Source: Paramicrobacterium chengjingii
GTDB lineage: Bacteria > Actinomycetota > Actinomycetes > Actinomycetales > Microbacteriaceae
Direction of reading: 5' to 3'
Length of the DNA stretch: 64,000 nt
NCBI RefSeq assembly: GCF_011751765.2
Contig: NZ_CP061169.1
Span: forward strand, 1,240,001-1,304,000
Shown here: piece by piece, positions 6,084 to 16,773 of the stretch
Layout: every line of letters begins with the position of its first letter
How positions within the stretch are numbered: the stretch's first letter is position 1
Program-made: the position numbers and the translations under genes
Notes under the pieces: generated by a model
Database searches by the model: none
The model's input: the letters and a program-made list of their open reading frames with translations, nothing else
Told to the model about the DNA's origin: nothing

Positions 6084-6689
6084 TCAGTTCGTCTCTTTCG
6101 CCTTCGCCGCTCGTTTCTGCTCACGCGCGAGGGAAGCGAGGTCGACGTCGATGAGGCGCTTCATGCGACTCGTGCGCATGCGGTCGTAGACGTCGTCTTG
6201 ATCAGGGACGAATCCGGGCGGGCCCACACGCTTGCGCACTTCACGGCCGATGTCTTCCCACGCATCCGTACGCGCCTGTTCGATGATGCCGGCCATCTCG
6301 GCGTCATCGTCTGCTCGTTCGCGCAGCTGCTCGGCCAGCATCCTGTGCACCTGAGGCCGCCTGCGGTGAGCCTCGTCATCGTCGGGACCCGGCTTGCGAA
6401 AACCTCGAGCCCTTTCCAAACGCGACGCCGTCTGATCGTTCTCAGCGGCAAGAGCGAGAACGTGCCGCCGAGCAGAATCGGTGAGCTTCTCGACATCGAA
6501 ACTCTCGTCATTGCGAATCGCGTTGACGATCAGTGTGTTCTTCACGCCCATGCGCACAGACGACAGCGCAATCATCACGCCCTCATCGACGACTCGCTCG
6601 ATGGGCGCAAGCACCGTCGACGTCGGCGGAACATACCGCCCCACATCGCGGGTGCGCTTGCGGCGCCGAAGACGAGAGAACAATGACAC
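6084..6689 (-). CDS. Hypothetical charged protein downstream of trpEG
   Basis: 201 residues, not recognised. It is strongly charged and helical: an Arg-rich start (MSLFSRLRRRKRTRDVGRYVPP), a central acidic/arginine stretch (ENDQTASRLERARGFRKPGPDDDEAHRRRP) and a lysine-rich tail. No membrane segment. The GTG at 6689 lies six bases downstream of a CACAAT hexamer (complement of 6696-6701), so it may have its own leaderless promoter at the trpEG stop as well as read-through from trpEG, which ends only four bases away. There is no evidence for a link to tryptophan metabolism. Confidence 0.7.
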   Translation of the reverse strand: MSLFSRLRRRKRTRDVGRYVPPTSTVLAPIERVVDEGVMIALSSVRMGVKNTLIVNAIRNDESFDVEKLTDSARRHVLALAAENDQTASRLERARGFRKPGPDDDEAHRRRPQVHRMLAEQLRERADDDAEMAGIIEQARTDAWEDIGREVRKRVGPPGFVPDQDDVYDRMRTSRMKRLIDVDLASLAREQKRAAKAKETN

Positions 6690-6693
6690 ACCT

Positions 6694-8544
6694 CTATTGT
6701 GTCTGGATTGAGGCGGCTTGGGGAACCATCACGTCTGAAACAAGCCGATCAAGCACGTCCAGGCCGTCGGGTGACAGCACCGATTCAAGATGACCCTGCA
6801 CAGTCGCTATGCGTGATCCGCGAAGAGCCTGCACCGTTCCTGTTTCGGCGTCGCGCGCGATCTCGAGGGACAGGCGTGGCGTGTGGCTCCGATCTCCGGC
6901 CACGGCCGCAAAGGTGTTGTAGAAGCCGATTCGCGCTCGGGAACCAAAGATATCGACAGTGCGTTGTTGGCCCTGACGAGGAGCTTGCAGCGGTTCGATC
7001 GTGAGACCGACCATGAGCGACAGAATCTGATGGCTGAGGCACACGGCGATCATCGGAAGCCCCGATGCGACACGATCGCTCATCAGACGGCGCAGACGGC
7101 CGACGCGCGGTTCCGTGGATCGCGGGTCCCCTGGCCCGGGGCCAAAGACGACCAGGTCATCGTCTGACGTCGGGTTGGCTCGTTCCCAGTCGACGACGCG
7201 TGCGGCGAATCCGAGATGTGTGAGCTGGTGCACCAGCATCCGGGTAAAGTCGTCACCTGCGTCAACGACCAGCGCCGAGAGCCCGCGGACGGCACGCGGC
7301 TGCTGCGGCTGACGCCAGAACGCGGCGATGTCGTGATTGCGCGCGGCCAGCAACTCGTCGAAGCGAGGGTCGTCGTGGAGCGGCTGCGCTTCGGTACGTC
7401 GGGGAAGCACGCCGAGGGCGCTGAGCACGCCCGACGCCTTCACACGCGTCTCGGCGACTTCGTTCTCAGGCGTCGAGTGACGAACGAGCGTCGCCCCAGC
7501 GGAAACCGTGACCGTGCCGTCATCATCGAGATGCGCGGCCCTGATGAGTATCGGAGCGTCAAGATCGTAGCCGTCTGATTTCGGCATGAACCGCGCGAGC
7601 ACGCCAGAGTAGTAGCGTCGCCCGCTTGACTCGTGGCGGGCTATGACGCGGCAGGCGTTCTGCATGGGGGAGCCGGTCACCGTCGGAGCGAACATGGTCA
7701 GGCGCAGAACGTCGCGCACATCACGCGGCGTCGTCCCCTCCAACAGGTATTCGGTGTGGGTCAGGCGAGACATGCGTTTCAGGAACGGTCCCGTCATGCG
7801 ACCGCCGTCCGGGCAGACGGCGCTCATCATCTTGAGCTCCTCGTCTACCACCATGACAAGTTCTTCGCTCTCTTTCACATCAGCGAGAAACTCCAGCATC
7901 CCTTCTGTTGTGGGGCCAGTCGCCGGGTGACGGTACGTTCCGCTGATCGGGTTCATGCCGACGACACCATCTGTCACACTCACGTGCCGTTCGGGCGTCG
8001 CTCCGACGAGCGAGATGCCCGGCGTGCGTACAGCGAAGGTCCAGTAGGCACCGTGTTCACTGACGAGCAACTCGCGAAGCCAGCTCAGAAGCGCTGTCAC
8101 CGGTTCGTCCGAGAAGTGAGCGGTGATGTCACGCCGAATCACGAAGTTGGCGCCTTCGCCGCGGCCGATCTCGTCATCGATGACGGTGCGCACCGTTTCG
8201 GCATACGCATCATCGTCGACGTCGACAGTCACATTTGACACATCGGCAGGATGCTGGGGCAGGGCCCCGAGTGCGTCCTCCACAGTGAGCGTCTCACGGT
8301 CCGTGACGACAAGGCACCGCAGCGGGGAGCCATCATCGTGTGCGGCGTACCCGCGCTCTGCCACCTGTCTGAATGGAACGAGTGTGAGTACTTCGTCGCC
8401 GGTCAGCGGGATGTCCGAGAGCGAATCGACGTCGATCACAGTACCGACGAGAATGTCGATTGTCGGCTCGTCTTCGCGGCGGATGAGGGCGAATGGCTGA
8501 TCATCGGTGAGAATTTGAGAGAGAAGTCGCGAGGGCGGGTGCAT
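6694..8544 (-). CDS. trpEG: Fused anthranilate synthase (TrpEG, PhzE-like): chorismate-binding domain plus glutamine amidotransferase
   Basis: 616 residues. The chorismate-binding (TrpE-type) domain spans about 90-390 with ISGTYRHPATG, SEELVMVVDEELKMMSAVC, SRLTHTEYLLEGTTPRDVRDVLR and FAPTVTGSPMQNA, all close to the PhzE/ADIC synthase style. The class I glutamine amidotransferase spans about 425-612 with Cys502 (AVCLSHQIL) and the His585/Glu587 pair (GHLES). It takes chorismate and glutamine to anthranilate, or to ADIC if it were a true PhzE. Because the gene follows a Trp-codon leader and attenuator, anthranilate for tryptophan is the better reading. No other phenazine gene is nearby. The ATG at 8544 has only a weak ribosome binding site. 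Confidence 0.88.
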   Translation of the reverse strand: MHPPSRLLSQILTDDQPFALIRREDEPTIDILVGTVIDVDSLSDIPLTGDEVLTLVPFRQVAERGYAAHDDGSPLRCLVVTDRETLTVEDALGALPQHPADVSNVTVDVDDDAYAETVRTVIDDEIGRGEGANFVIRRDITAHFSDEPVTALLSWLRELLVSEHGAYWTFAVRTPGISLVGATPERHVSVTDGVVGMNPISGTYRHPATGPTTEGMLEFLADVKESEELVMVVDEELKMMSAVCPDGGRMTGPFLKRMSRLTHTEYLLEGTTPRDVRDVLRLTMFAPTVTGSPMQNACRVIARHESSGRRYYSGVLARFMPKSDGYDLDAPILIRAAHLDDDGTVTVSAGATLVRHSTPENEVAETRVKASGVLSALGVLPRRTEAQPLHDDPRFDELLAARNHDIAAFWRQPQQPRAVRGLSALVVDAGDDFTRMLVHQLTHLGFAARVVDWERANPTSDDDLVVFGPGPGDPRSTEPRVGRLRRLMSDRVASGLPMIAVCLSHQILSLMVGLTIEPLQAPRQGQQRTVDIFGSRARIGFYNTFAAVAGDRSHTPRLSLEIARDAETGTVQALRGSRIATVQGHLESVLSPDGLDVLDRLVSDVMVPQAASIQTQ

Positions 8545-8593: not shown

Positions 8594-8658
8594 AACGACC
8601 GCCTCGAGGGGCGGTCGTTGATGCGTCGAAACGTCGAGAGAACCGCCTCTCAGGCGGT
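8594..8658 (-). promoter_or_regulatory. Transcription attenuator of trpEG
   Basis: On the minus-strand RNA the leader holds two hairpins. Hairpin 1:2 pairs ACCGCCT with AGGCGGT (plus coordinates 8642-8658) directly at the Trp codons and stop. Hairpin 3:4 is a 10-bp stem (arms 8594-8603 and 8610-8619) with a six-base loop, followed by a short T-run. The second arm of 1:2 (GGCGGT) can instead pair with ACCGCC in the first arm of 3:4, giving an antiterminator. A ribosome stalled at the Trp-Trp codons would favour the antiterminator. The fold is read by eye, not computed. Confidence 0.82.
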
Positions 8659-8688
8659 CCACCACTGCATGTTCGATTCGATGCGCAT
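8650..8688 (-). CDS. trpL: Tryptophan leader peptide (12 residues, tandem Trp)
   Basis: The peptide reads MRIESNMQWWTA and then stops, with two adjacent Trp codons two residues before the end. Its stop lies inside the first attenuator hairpin. A TACCAT hexamer lies exactly six bases before the ATG (complement of 8695-8700), so the leader is probably translated from a leaderless transcript. An in-frame ATG at 8706, overlapping the monooxygenase stop, would give 18 residues and is the alternative. A Trp attenuator before a fused anthranilate synthase gene has been described in Streptomyces venezuelae, which supports this reading. Confidence 0.85.
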   Translation of the reverse strand: MRIESNMQWWTA

Positions 8689-8705
8689 GCCTCGATGGTA
8701 GCGCA

Positions 8706-9929
8706 TCAGTCGACGGCTTCCGTCACCTCCGGAATGCGCGCAGGTTTCTGCAGAAGCTTCTTGATGGGGCCGAGAGCGGCTTCGATCGTCATCATGCGCA
8801 TGGCGAGGTTCCGCGCGTGCGCAAGCAGCGTGCTGCGGCGGAACATGAGCCCGGCGAGCTGACGAGAGTTTGCCTGAGCCGACTCGACACGGGGCCGTTG
8901 TTCGGCCTCGTAAGCCGACAGCGCGACTCGAACGCTCGCGCTCGTCGCATCGGCGATGGTGCCGCACAGCACCCAGGCGGACTCGATGGCCATTCCCGCT
9001 CCGATTCCTGCCGTCGGCAGAAATCCGGCTGCTGCGTCGCCGAGCAGAACTGTGCGGCCGGATGCCCATTGCTGCGTTCGCACGTCGTCAAGCACCCAGT
9101 AGAACGGCTCATCGGCCGCGCTGACGGAATCGAGTACGTGGTCGAGTCGTGATGTGCGCGACGTGAGGTGCGCCCGGATGCTGTCAACGAACGCCTGCGG
9201 TCCCACAGCCGTATCTCCTCCTGGGCCGCCGATGAATGCCCCGATGGCGCCGGCTACCGGGTAGCTTCCGACGAAGAAACCATCTCCCCACATCTCCTCG
9301 CCGAGATCGATATCGTCGTCAGCGTCTGCCCAGACGACCCAGCCGCCCCAGCCCGTGATCGTCTCGTTGAGCCCGGTCCCACCTGGAGTGAAGCGTCGGG
9401 TGTGTGAATGGATGCCGTCGGCGATGATGACAGCATCGAAAGTCGCTTCGGCAGCACCGTCTGGGGTGTCGAAGCGTACGTGTGCGGAGGCGTCACCATC
9501 GTTCAGTGAGCGCACAGTCGTTCCGACGGTCACGGGCGCTCCTGCCTCGGTAAGCACGTCGAGAAGTGCTCCACGGCTGATGCCCCGATAGTCACCGTAG
9601 TCACGCAGCAGCTCGCCCAGCGAGTCTTCGCGAATCTGCGCTCCGTGATGGTTGAGCACGCGGTAGCGATCCACGGGCGTGCTGGCTTCCACATACGCAT
9701 CGCGTACCCCGAGAGCATCGATTGCTGCATCGACCATGGGCATGAGTGCCAACATGTAGCCGGCGTCGTCGAAAGAACTGACGCGATCGATGAGCACAGG
9801 GTGGAGCCCACGGGTGCGAAGAAGCTGTGCTGCTGTCGTGCCGCCAATGCCAGCTCCGACAATGAGGATGCGCAGCGGATCGCCCGCGTTTGCCTGCAGC
9901 TGGTCGGGAAGTGTTGCTTCTGTGAACAT
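8706..9929 (-). CDS. FAD-dependent monooxygenase (UbiH/PHBH-like)
   Basis: About 407 residues. It has the FAD Rossmann motif ILIVGAGIGGTTAAQLL near the start, a DG-type motif in VIIADGIHSHTRR and the second FAD motif GDAAAGFLPTAGIGAGMAIESAW, the three signatures of class A flavoprotein hydroxylases. AAGGAG precedes two consecutive ATGs; the second (9929) has the better spacing, while the first (9932) adds one Met. It is divergent from a tetR gene, and the two palindromic operators between them suggest it is the regulated target, perhaps for an aromatic compound or drug. The substrate is unknown. Its last codons overlap the trpL promoter region. Confidence 0.85.
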   Translation of the reverse strand: MFTEATLPDQLQANAGDPLRILIVGAGIGGTTAAQLLRTRGLHPVLIDRVSSFDDAGYMLALMPMVDAAIDALGVRDAYVEASTPVDRYRVLNHHGAQIREDSLGELLRDYGDYRGISRGALLDVLTEAGAPVTVGTTVRSLNDGDASAHVRFDTPDGAAEATFDAVIIADGIHSHTRRFTPGGTGLNETITGWGGWVVWADADDDIDLGEEMWGDGFFVGSYPVAGAIGAFIGGPGGDTAVGPQAFVDSIRAHLTSRTSRLDHVLDSVSAADEPFYWVLDDVRTQQWASGRTVLLGDAAAGFLPTAGIGAGMAIESAWVLCGTIADATSASVRVALSAYEAEQRPRVESAQANSRQLAGLMFRRSTLLAHARNLAMRMMTIEAALGPIKKLLQKPARIPEVTEAVD

Positions 9930-9941
9930 CATCGCTCCTTG

Positions 9942-16488: not shown

Positions 16489-16607
16489 CAGAACCGGAAA
16501 TGTCGACAAGCGAAATCTCGTAACAATTGATCGAGCGCATCATCGAGTTTTCTCGCGCGGCAAGATAAGCTGTGCGTGCAACTGAATATCAGGCCGCACG
16601 CACGACG

Positions 16608-16773
16608 CGGGAGAGCTCGTTGAATCGGGCACCGAAGGAGCAAGCCTCCCCGCCAATCTCTCAGGTTTCATACCGCATCGTTCTGGCCACTCTGAAAAGC
16701 GGAGCGACTGCTCCCGCCCACGGTGAAAGTCGCTTCCCAGCGGCGAAGCTCTCAGGCTCATGACAGAGGGGGA
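16608..16773 (+). promoter_or_regulatory. Tandem glycine riboswitch upstream of gcvT
   Basis: Two glycine aptamers in a row. The first (16608-16675) has GGGAGAGC, CACCGAAGGAGCAAGCC and AATCTCTCAGG. The second (16684-16773) has CACTCTGAAAAGC, a GGTGAAAG loop, GCGAAGCTCTCAGG and the conserved end TGACAGAGGGGGAG. Between the second aptamer and the gcvT GTG (16821) I see no clear terminator with a T-run, so the on-switch may act on translation through GGAG at 16812-16815. A perfect 8-bp inverted repeat (16572-16579 with 16596-16603) precedes the first aptamer. Confidence 0.95.

Follow-up and report, generated by a model that had tools for sequence, protein, structure and literature searches.

Two questions are raised by a short reading frame with tandem Trp codons that lies, together with two hairpins, in front of the gene of a fused chorismate-binding and glutamine amidotransferase enzyme in the 64,000-nucleotide stretch of DNA analysed here (the window): whether these elements form a tryptophan-sensing switch, and whether the enzyme supplies anthranilate for tryptophan or is a phenazine enzyme of the PhzE type. 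The mechanism is an ordinary one, namely a Trp attenuator of a type already known from actinobacteria, and it is well supported; what the comparison of relatives adds is a divide between leader-bearing and PhzD-linked enzymes, an apparent replacement of trpE, and a set of candidate residues.

Architecture of the Leader

A sequence-only reading of this DNA had described a 12-residue Trp-Trp peptide, a hairpin at its stop codon, and a second strong hairpin; all three were found at the place claimed, on the minus strand. The elements are the following.

8706-9932, minus strand: FAD-binding monooxygenase-like gene, with 17 nt between its end and the leader ATG; kept in five same-genus loci
8695-8700, minus strand: -10 box TACCAT, 6 nt upstream of the leader ATG (from sequence; a leaderless transcript is predicted)
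8650-8688, minus strand: leader peptide ORF MRIESNMQWWTA including the stop codon, ATG at 8688 and stop at 8652-8650 (from sequence)
8659-8664, minus strand: tandem Trp codons UGG UGG, the proposed sensor (from sequence and alignment)
8652-8660, minus strand: segment 1, 5' arm of hairpin 1:2 (fold, 9 bp, -13.6 kcal/mol)
8640-8648, minus strand: segment 2, 3' arm of 1:2 and also 5' arm of the proposed antiterminator 2:3 (fold)
8610-8619, minus strand: segment 3, 5' arm of the terminator-like 3:4 and also 3' arm of 2:3 (compensatory changes in 3:4)
8594-8603, minus strand: segment 4, 3' arm of the terminator-like 3:4, then a short U run (fold, 10 bp, -17.6 kcal/mol)
6694-8544, minus strand: fused chorismate-binding and glutamine amidotransferase enzyme (TrpEG type), 616 aa (PF00425 and PF00117)

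Hairpin 1:2 (9 bp, 8660-8652 with 8648-8640) spans the leader stop codon, while hairpin 3:4 is a GC-rich 10-bp stem (8619-8610 with 8603-8594), followed by a short U run (UUUCG) and ending 49 nt before the gene start, with the start codon outside the hairpin. The alternative 2:3 pairing, proposed earlier as six base pairs, consists of 6 Watson-Crick pairs plus one G.U and is mutually exclusive with both 1:2 and 3:4. Folding of the 95-base leader, suggested as a check, gave -43.3 kcal/mol (z -3.0; none of 200 shuffles equally low); since the palindromic leader folds on both strands (z -3.8 for the complement), the strand is assigned from the ORF and the gene and not from the fold. Because the monooxygenase-like gene ends so close to the leader ATG, the leader promoter should lie in or beside this tiny gap. 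In the 64-kb window, Rfam at gathering score gave no match to a Trp-leader family, the enterobacterial Trp leader included, its hits being limited to two glycine aptamers and one TPP riboswitch.

Conservation of the Leader and Its Predicted Leaderless Start

The comparison is based on a first set, made of genome-derived loci and the best 80 of 584 confirmed matches from a scan of GTDB contigs (L004 and L085 both represent the window, and L083 looks spurious), to which 72 loci chosen to spread over families were added; of the resulting 162 loci, three (L018, L062, and L093) were left out because upstream sequence is lacking, and among the remaining 159, L050 and L152 are one gene. With the leader ORF limited to 26 codons, 115 of the 159 fused-gene loci have a short Trp-Trp ORF whose start follows a TAnnnT box at a distance of 6-8 nt; conservation of the Trp codons in relatives, which had been named as a check, thus extends from the four same-genus loci L086-L089 widely beyond the genus. 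All 49 aligned leaders, a set selected for these codons, have UGG UGG. At the margins of the classification, L094 falls among the loci with neither mark solely through an imperfect box; L166, counted as lacking a leader, has a boxed Trp-Trp ORF longer than the 26-codon limit; and L195 has a single-Trp ORF.

The leaderless start of the peptide had been regarded as an oddity; this did not hold, the leaderless start being the rule. Indeed, in the first set a TAnnnT box is found 5-8 nt upstream in 79 of the 81 loci with a Trp-Trp type short ORF; a control on other ATG or GTG codons in the same regions yields the box at this distance in 4 of 1476 cases, and a Shine-Dalgarno-like site (GGAG, GAGG, or AGGA, 5-15 nt before the start) is present in none of the 115 leaders. 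Transcription is, therefore, predicted to start at the leader ATG itself; TrpL1 of S. lividans is reported to be leaderless on the basis of RNA-seq (PMC8079986).

Pairing Evidence and the Proposed Switch

In an alignment of 49 chosen leaders, standard pairing is seen in 83.8% of cells for the positions assigned to 1:2 and 3:4, and 9 pairs are changed on both sides, a number reached by none of 500 shuffles (mean 4.8), slid versions of the two helices having at most 7. Taken separately, 3:4 is paired in 88% of cells and 1:2 in 77%; the latter figure refers to the stop-codon stem, which is used throughout, RNAalifold having favoured a shifted 1:2 stem that involves the UGG codons. For 2:3, pairing is preserved in 82.4% of cells, but its covariation alone is weak (2 double-sided changes, matched in 285 of 500 shuffles). 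A greedy hairpin finder, which mis-assigned some loci, found no 3:4 in 2 of 79 (L016 and L090).

The switch was modelled with an assumed ribosome footprint. When segment 4 is absent and the ribosome is placed on either of the two Trp codons, 2:3 is part of the minimum free energy structure in 45 of 49 leaders in each case; with the ribosome at the stop codon it is part of none of the 49, and 3:4 then forms in all 49. At equilibrium, even with a stalled ribosome, 3:4 still wins in 47 of 49 leaders (in the window leader, -24.3 kcal/mol for 3:4 versus -17.7 for 2:3), so that readthrough must rely on the order of folding. This preference for 3:4 and the shortness of the U run behind it are the weak points of the attenuation model. 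In the model, the alternatives 1:2, 2:3, and 3:4 are thus placed for the position of the ribosome to decide.

The conserved box and Trp codons, the covariation of 1:2 and 3:4, and the exclusive pairings bear out the Trp attenuation proposed at the outset, and it is highly likely that the leader is a ribosome-mediated Trp transcription attenuator, in a compact leaderless form, placed before a fused anthranilate synthase; the switch would very probably turn on the fused enzyme when tryptophan runs short. A short leader ORF with tandem Trp codons is found ahead of the gene, whose role in tryptophan synthesis is deduced from comparison; we infer the start site, the termination, the response to tryptophan, the product, and the feedback behaviour. 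RNA polymerase would start at the A of the leader ATG; with charged tRNA-Trp plentiful, the ribosome would reach the stop codon and cover segment 2, 3:4 would form, and transcription would stop about 50 nt upstream of the gene. When tryptophan is short, the ribosome would halt on UGG UGG, covering segment 1 and leaving segment 2 free to pair with segment 3 before segment 4 is made, and the polymerase would read into the fused gene. The fused enzyme would thereby represent a second, Trp-controlled source of anthranilate, beside a canonical TrpE that has no such leader and carries the LLES motif.

It is rather improbable that the leader acts via translation, mRNA stability, or Rho instead of by intrinsic termination at 3:4. 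Such a reading would account for the short U run, and finds parallels in several S. lividans leader peptides reported to be without a typical U-rich terminator (PMC8079986) and in the ribosome reinitiation proposed at leader peptides (PMC4833913); however, 3:4 leaves the gene start uncovered downstream, it is the better conserved of the two helices, and longer U runs follow it in many relatives. That a short ORF and hairpins came together between two genes by chance can practically be dismissed: dinucleotide shuffling of the 115 leader regions does yield a Trp-Trp short ORF without the box in 21 of 2300 cases, but ORF and box together in none of the 2300, and the conservation, the box, the missing Shine-Dalgarno site, and the paired changes all contradict it.

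A covariance model of the leader RNA found one strong site in the window's own genome, which is that of the window (68.5 bits), the next site (23.9 bits) being the same place on the opposite strand. Class-wide, the model matches 85 of 246 genomes at E<=0.01; 30 of the matching loci were retained, of which 25 have the window-type enzyme, one (L145) has only a weak enzyme match (36%), and four (L137, L142, L144, and L146) have no window-type enzyme match. According to Pfam, the RNA match precedes a W/Y-type tRNA synthetase gene at L137 and a TrpD-like gene at L142, in keeping with a Trp leader, and the genes at L224, L225, and L228 look like trpS by eye. In genomes of family f35 (L227, L229, L230, and L231), the leader RNA match is near a different type of TrpE, 31-41% identical to the TrpE of the window's genome over the best stretch.

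The Fused Enzyme: Anthranilate or ADIC

The presence of a PhzE-like fusion downstream of the leader is confirmed, since the chorismate-binding domain (PF00425) is joined to a class-I amidotransferase domain (PF00117) with Cys 502 in AVCLSHQ, which we take to be the catalytic Cys, and the nearest solved structure by sequence is 3r74 (E 1.2e-148, covering residues 7-603), presumably a PhzE. The closest named protein, 91% identical, is from Paramicrobacterium fandaimingii. The concern that annotation as PhzE would mislead is a real one, because relatives are recorded variously as "anthranilate synthase family protein", "chorismate-binding protein", and "phenazine biosynthesis protein phzE", the last name being given to several close relatives.

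As the phenazine-type mark we took a PhzD match scoring over 200 bits in the flanking sequence retrieved (no more than 1.5 to 5 kb per side, depending on the source); 23 of the 159 loci have one. The two marks exclude each other: 115 loci have the leader only, 23 PhzD only, 21 neither, and none both, the Trp leader being present at 0 of the 23 PhzD-linked loci (Fisher p 6e-16, a figure that kinship among the loci makes a guide only). The 21 loci with neither mark include 13 of the 19 loci of family f45, as well as L091 and L092, from the same order and family as the window. A neighbouring PhzC-like (DAHP synthase) gene occurs at 33 loci, 15 of them with the leader and 16 linked to PhzD, and was for that reason rejected as a phenazine mark.

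In a tree of 107 proteins, built by a quick method with SH-aLRT support and without bootstrap, the 22 PhzD-linked enzymes, which include Pseudomonas PhzE, occupy one side of a branch by themselves (SH-aLRT 95), and in the smallest well-supported sets that contain the window enzyme (2, 9, and 11 proteins) every member is leader-bearing. Comparison of the 85 leader-bearing with the 22 PhzD-linked proteins singles out five positions: 196 (V in 78/85; A in 21/22), 217 (L in 76/85, M in the window enzyme; V in 19/22), 269 (L in 85/85; I in 22/22), 332 (P in 84/85; A or S in 21/22), and 374 (V in 72/85; L in 22/22). Unlike the PhzD-linked enzymes, which mostly have I, A or S, and L at 269, 332, and 374, the window enzyme has L269, P332, and V374. 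These five residues, and in particular that at 269, may mark the making of anthranilate as opposed to the release of ADIC; the signature comes from one branch and may reflect mere shared descent, because L157 (PhzD-type residues, yet outside the PhzD-linked branch and without ADIC context) and L182/L183 (mixed residues at these positions) give no independent support. According to PMC5958127, protein sequences give no indication of the difference between the two activities; the residues would be candidates for explaining why PhzE retains the pyruvate.

H264 of the window enzyme aligns with the histidine of MHLVS in the TrpE of the same genome, and we assume it to be equivalent to H398 of Salmonella TrpE. 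Of the 162 fused proteins, 5 contain LLES, placed at residue 199 or beyond and not at the N-terminal position, where the canonical TrpE of the genome has FLLESAEGG, presumably the feedback site. A search for a viral copy of the fused enzyme gave 3 pattern matches, none of which was confirmed.

The view that the enzyme makes anthranilate and not phenazine precursors is upheld by the exclusion of leader and PhzD, by its separate branch, and by the TrpE-less relatives described below; comparison thus supports an anthranilate synthase that brings its own glutaminase and supplies the tryptophan pathway. It is very unlikely that it is instead an ADIC synthase (PhzE) of a secondary-metabolite pathway that the leader merely links to tryptophan levels. 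The strong similarity to 3r74, the records that call close relatives PhzE, and the monooxygenase-like gene directly upstream might suggest so; against this, PhzB, PhzC, PhzD, PhzF, and PhzG of Pseudomonas PA7 are unmatched at the window's locus L085 (flanks of about 1.5 kb), no phz family is found among the seven neighbouring window proteins scanned, the PhzD-linked enzymes are on the other branch and lack the leader, the window enzyme has the other residues at 269, 332, and 374, and relatives appear to replace TrpE genus-wide. With no phz neighbour found and the wrong branch, a PhzE or phenazine function was dropped. The anthranilate reading offers a sequence rule for separating enzymes that often receive the same annotation: the leaderless Trp-Trp leader would point to tryptophan, and a PhzD neighbour to a phenazine-type function.

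The fused enzymes of family f45 (L204-L222), in which 13 of 19 loci have no Trp leader, show the leader-type residue pattern; at least three f45 genomes have no canonical TrpE match, and two f45 genomes have a leader-like RNA ahead of a gene that by eye is trpS-like.

TrpE in the Window's Genome and Its Apparent Loss in Relatives

The window's genome (a single contig of 3.62 Mb) has four chorismate-binding genes. Besides the fused gene, it encodes a canonical TrpE, above NCBIfam cut-offs and directly behind hisI, a point absent from the sequence-only reading; a PabB-like protein (best model pabB, 295 bits, under the cut-off of 328); and, as the fourth, an isochorismate synthase. It also has a trpG/pabA gene, trpD, and trpB. 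Since the genome holds a canonical TrpE, the fused enzyme would here be a second anthranilate synthase. A Trp leader before the canonical trpE was considered and rejected: the genome has no second RNA-model match above 23.9 bits, and the 500 nt before the gene contain neither TGG-TGG nor TGG-NNN-TGG.

The situation is different in a Microbacterium-like genus (g55), taken to be Microbacterium because six of its loci are 79-92% DNA-identical to loci named Microbacterium; for two further genomes, G149 and G172, the nearest loci carry the name Agromyces. In all seven g55 genomes sampled, no TIGR00564 match exceeds 284 bits (the TrpE of the window's genome reaches 533), and the best match is nearer to the PabB-like protein (37-48%) than to the TrpE (31-37%) of the window's genome. 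All seven keep trpD and trpB, and in all seven the operon reads hisG-hisF-hisI-195-aa protein-trpC-trpB-trpA, with no trpE match between hisI and trpC; G203 has several kilobases more before trpC. In G149, trpE is present between hisI and the trpC position. In a wider sample of the genus, 148 of 149 genomes have no TIGR00564 match at E<=1e-100, the one exception (G429) scoring 488.8 bits, below the cut-off. The leader RNA is found at E<=0.001 in 147 of the 149 (a count of the RNA itself), and the two genomes without it are assemblies of 650 and 480 contigs.

It would appear that the window's genus and the Agromyces-like genomes still hold both enzymes and that Microbacterium lost trpE from its his-trp operon. 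The fused enzyme falls outside the PhzD-linked branch and, on genetic grounds, should be able to stand in for TrpE. A contribution of a PabB-like enzyme could in principle be envisaged. The comparison inclines us, if only somewhat, to the broader view that the attenuated PhzE-like enzyme took over the committed step of tryptophan synthesis across Microbacteriaceae, with the residue signature possibly marking the anthranilate/ADIC difference. If so, control of the committed step would have moved from TrpE feedback to an RNA switch, and Microbacterium would be a natural trpE deletion with the PhzE-like enzyme as the best candidate for its anthranilate synthase. Among the titles listed by a literature search that named Microbacterium, none concerns trpE loss there.

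Relation to Known Systems

A close parallel is TrpL1 before the monocistronic trpE of S. lividans, which is reported (PMC8079986) to have a leaderless Trp-codon peptide (MFAHSTRNWWWTAHPAAH) and two hairpins, and in which trpE, like the window gene, is a stand-alone anthranilate synthase gene; it differs in its three Trp codons, in its longer peptide, and in a start taken from RNA-seq, predicted in the window. Leaders near-identical to TrpL1 precede fused genes in L179 and L180, so that SLIV_27120 would also be of the fused type. In S. venezuelae, a fused TrpEG resembling PhzE is described as being under a Trp attenuator (Lin 1998, Ashenafi 2008/2015; as cited in PMC1262725, PMC3111181, and PMC5958127), and the title of the 2008 Ashenafi paper, cited through the same sources, presents the enzyme as an anthranilate synthase, not an ADIC synthase; this enzyme, likened to that of the window by description, belongs to another order of actinobacteria. 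The trp attenuators of Corynebacterium and Streptomyces, as described in PMC1262725, share with the window leader a double or triple UGG, a GC-rich terminator, and a complementary triple, but they have poly-U and gGCC-rGCy-GGCC triples, whereas the window has a short U run and ACCGCC-GGCGGU-ACCGCC. PhzE of Pseudomonas PA7 (L082) has the same domain fusion as the window enzyme and is 47% identical to it, differing in its phz neighbours, in having no Trp leader, and in its separate branch.

Neighbouring Genes and Other Observations

6084-6689, minus strand: 201-aa protein with no family match, starting 4 nt after the enzyme stop codon
197-296, plus strand: TPP riboswitch (Rfam)
16598-16773, plus strand: two tandem glycine riboswitch aptamers (Rfam)

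The 201-aa protein has no Pfam, NCBIfam, or PADLOC match; its gene, perhaps co-transcribed with that of the enzyme, is found in the five same-genus loci L085-L089 and at no other locus of that search. At L182/L183 (G167:C1, about 7.97-7.98 Mb), some 13 kb separate a pair of diverged fused genes of the TrpEG/PhzE-like type, whose neighbours are HpaB-like, DAHP-synthase-like, and UvrA-like; by comparison with PMC5958127, the region could represent a pyrrolobenzodiazepine-type cluster in which the two genes are a TomD/TomP-like pair.
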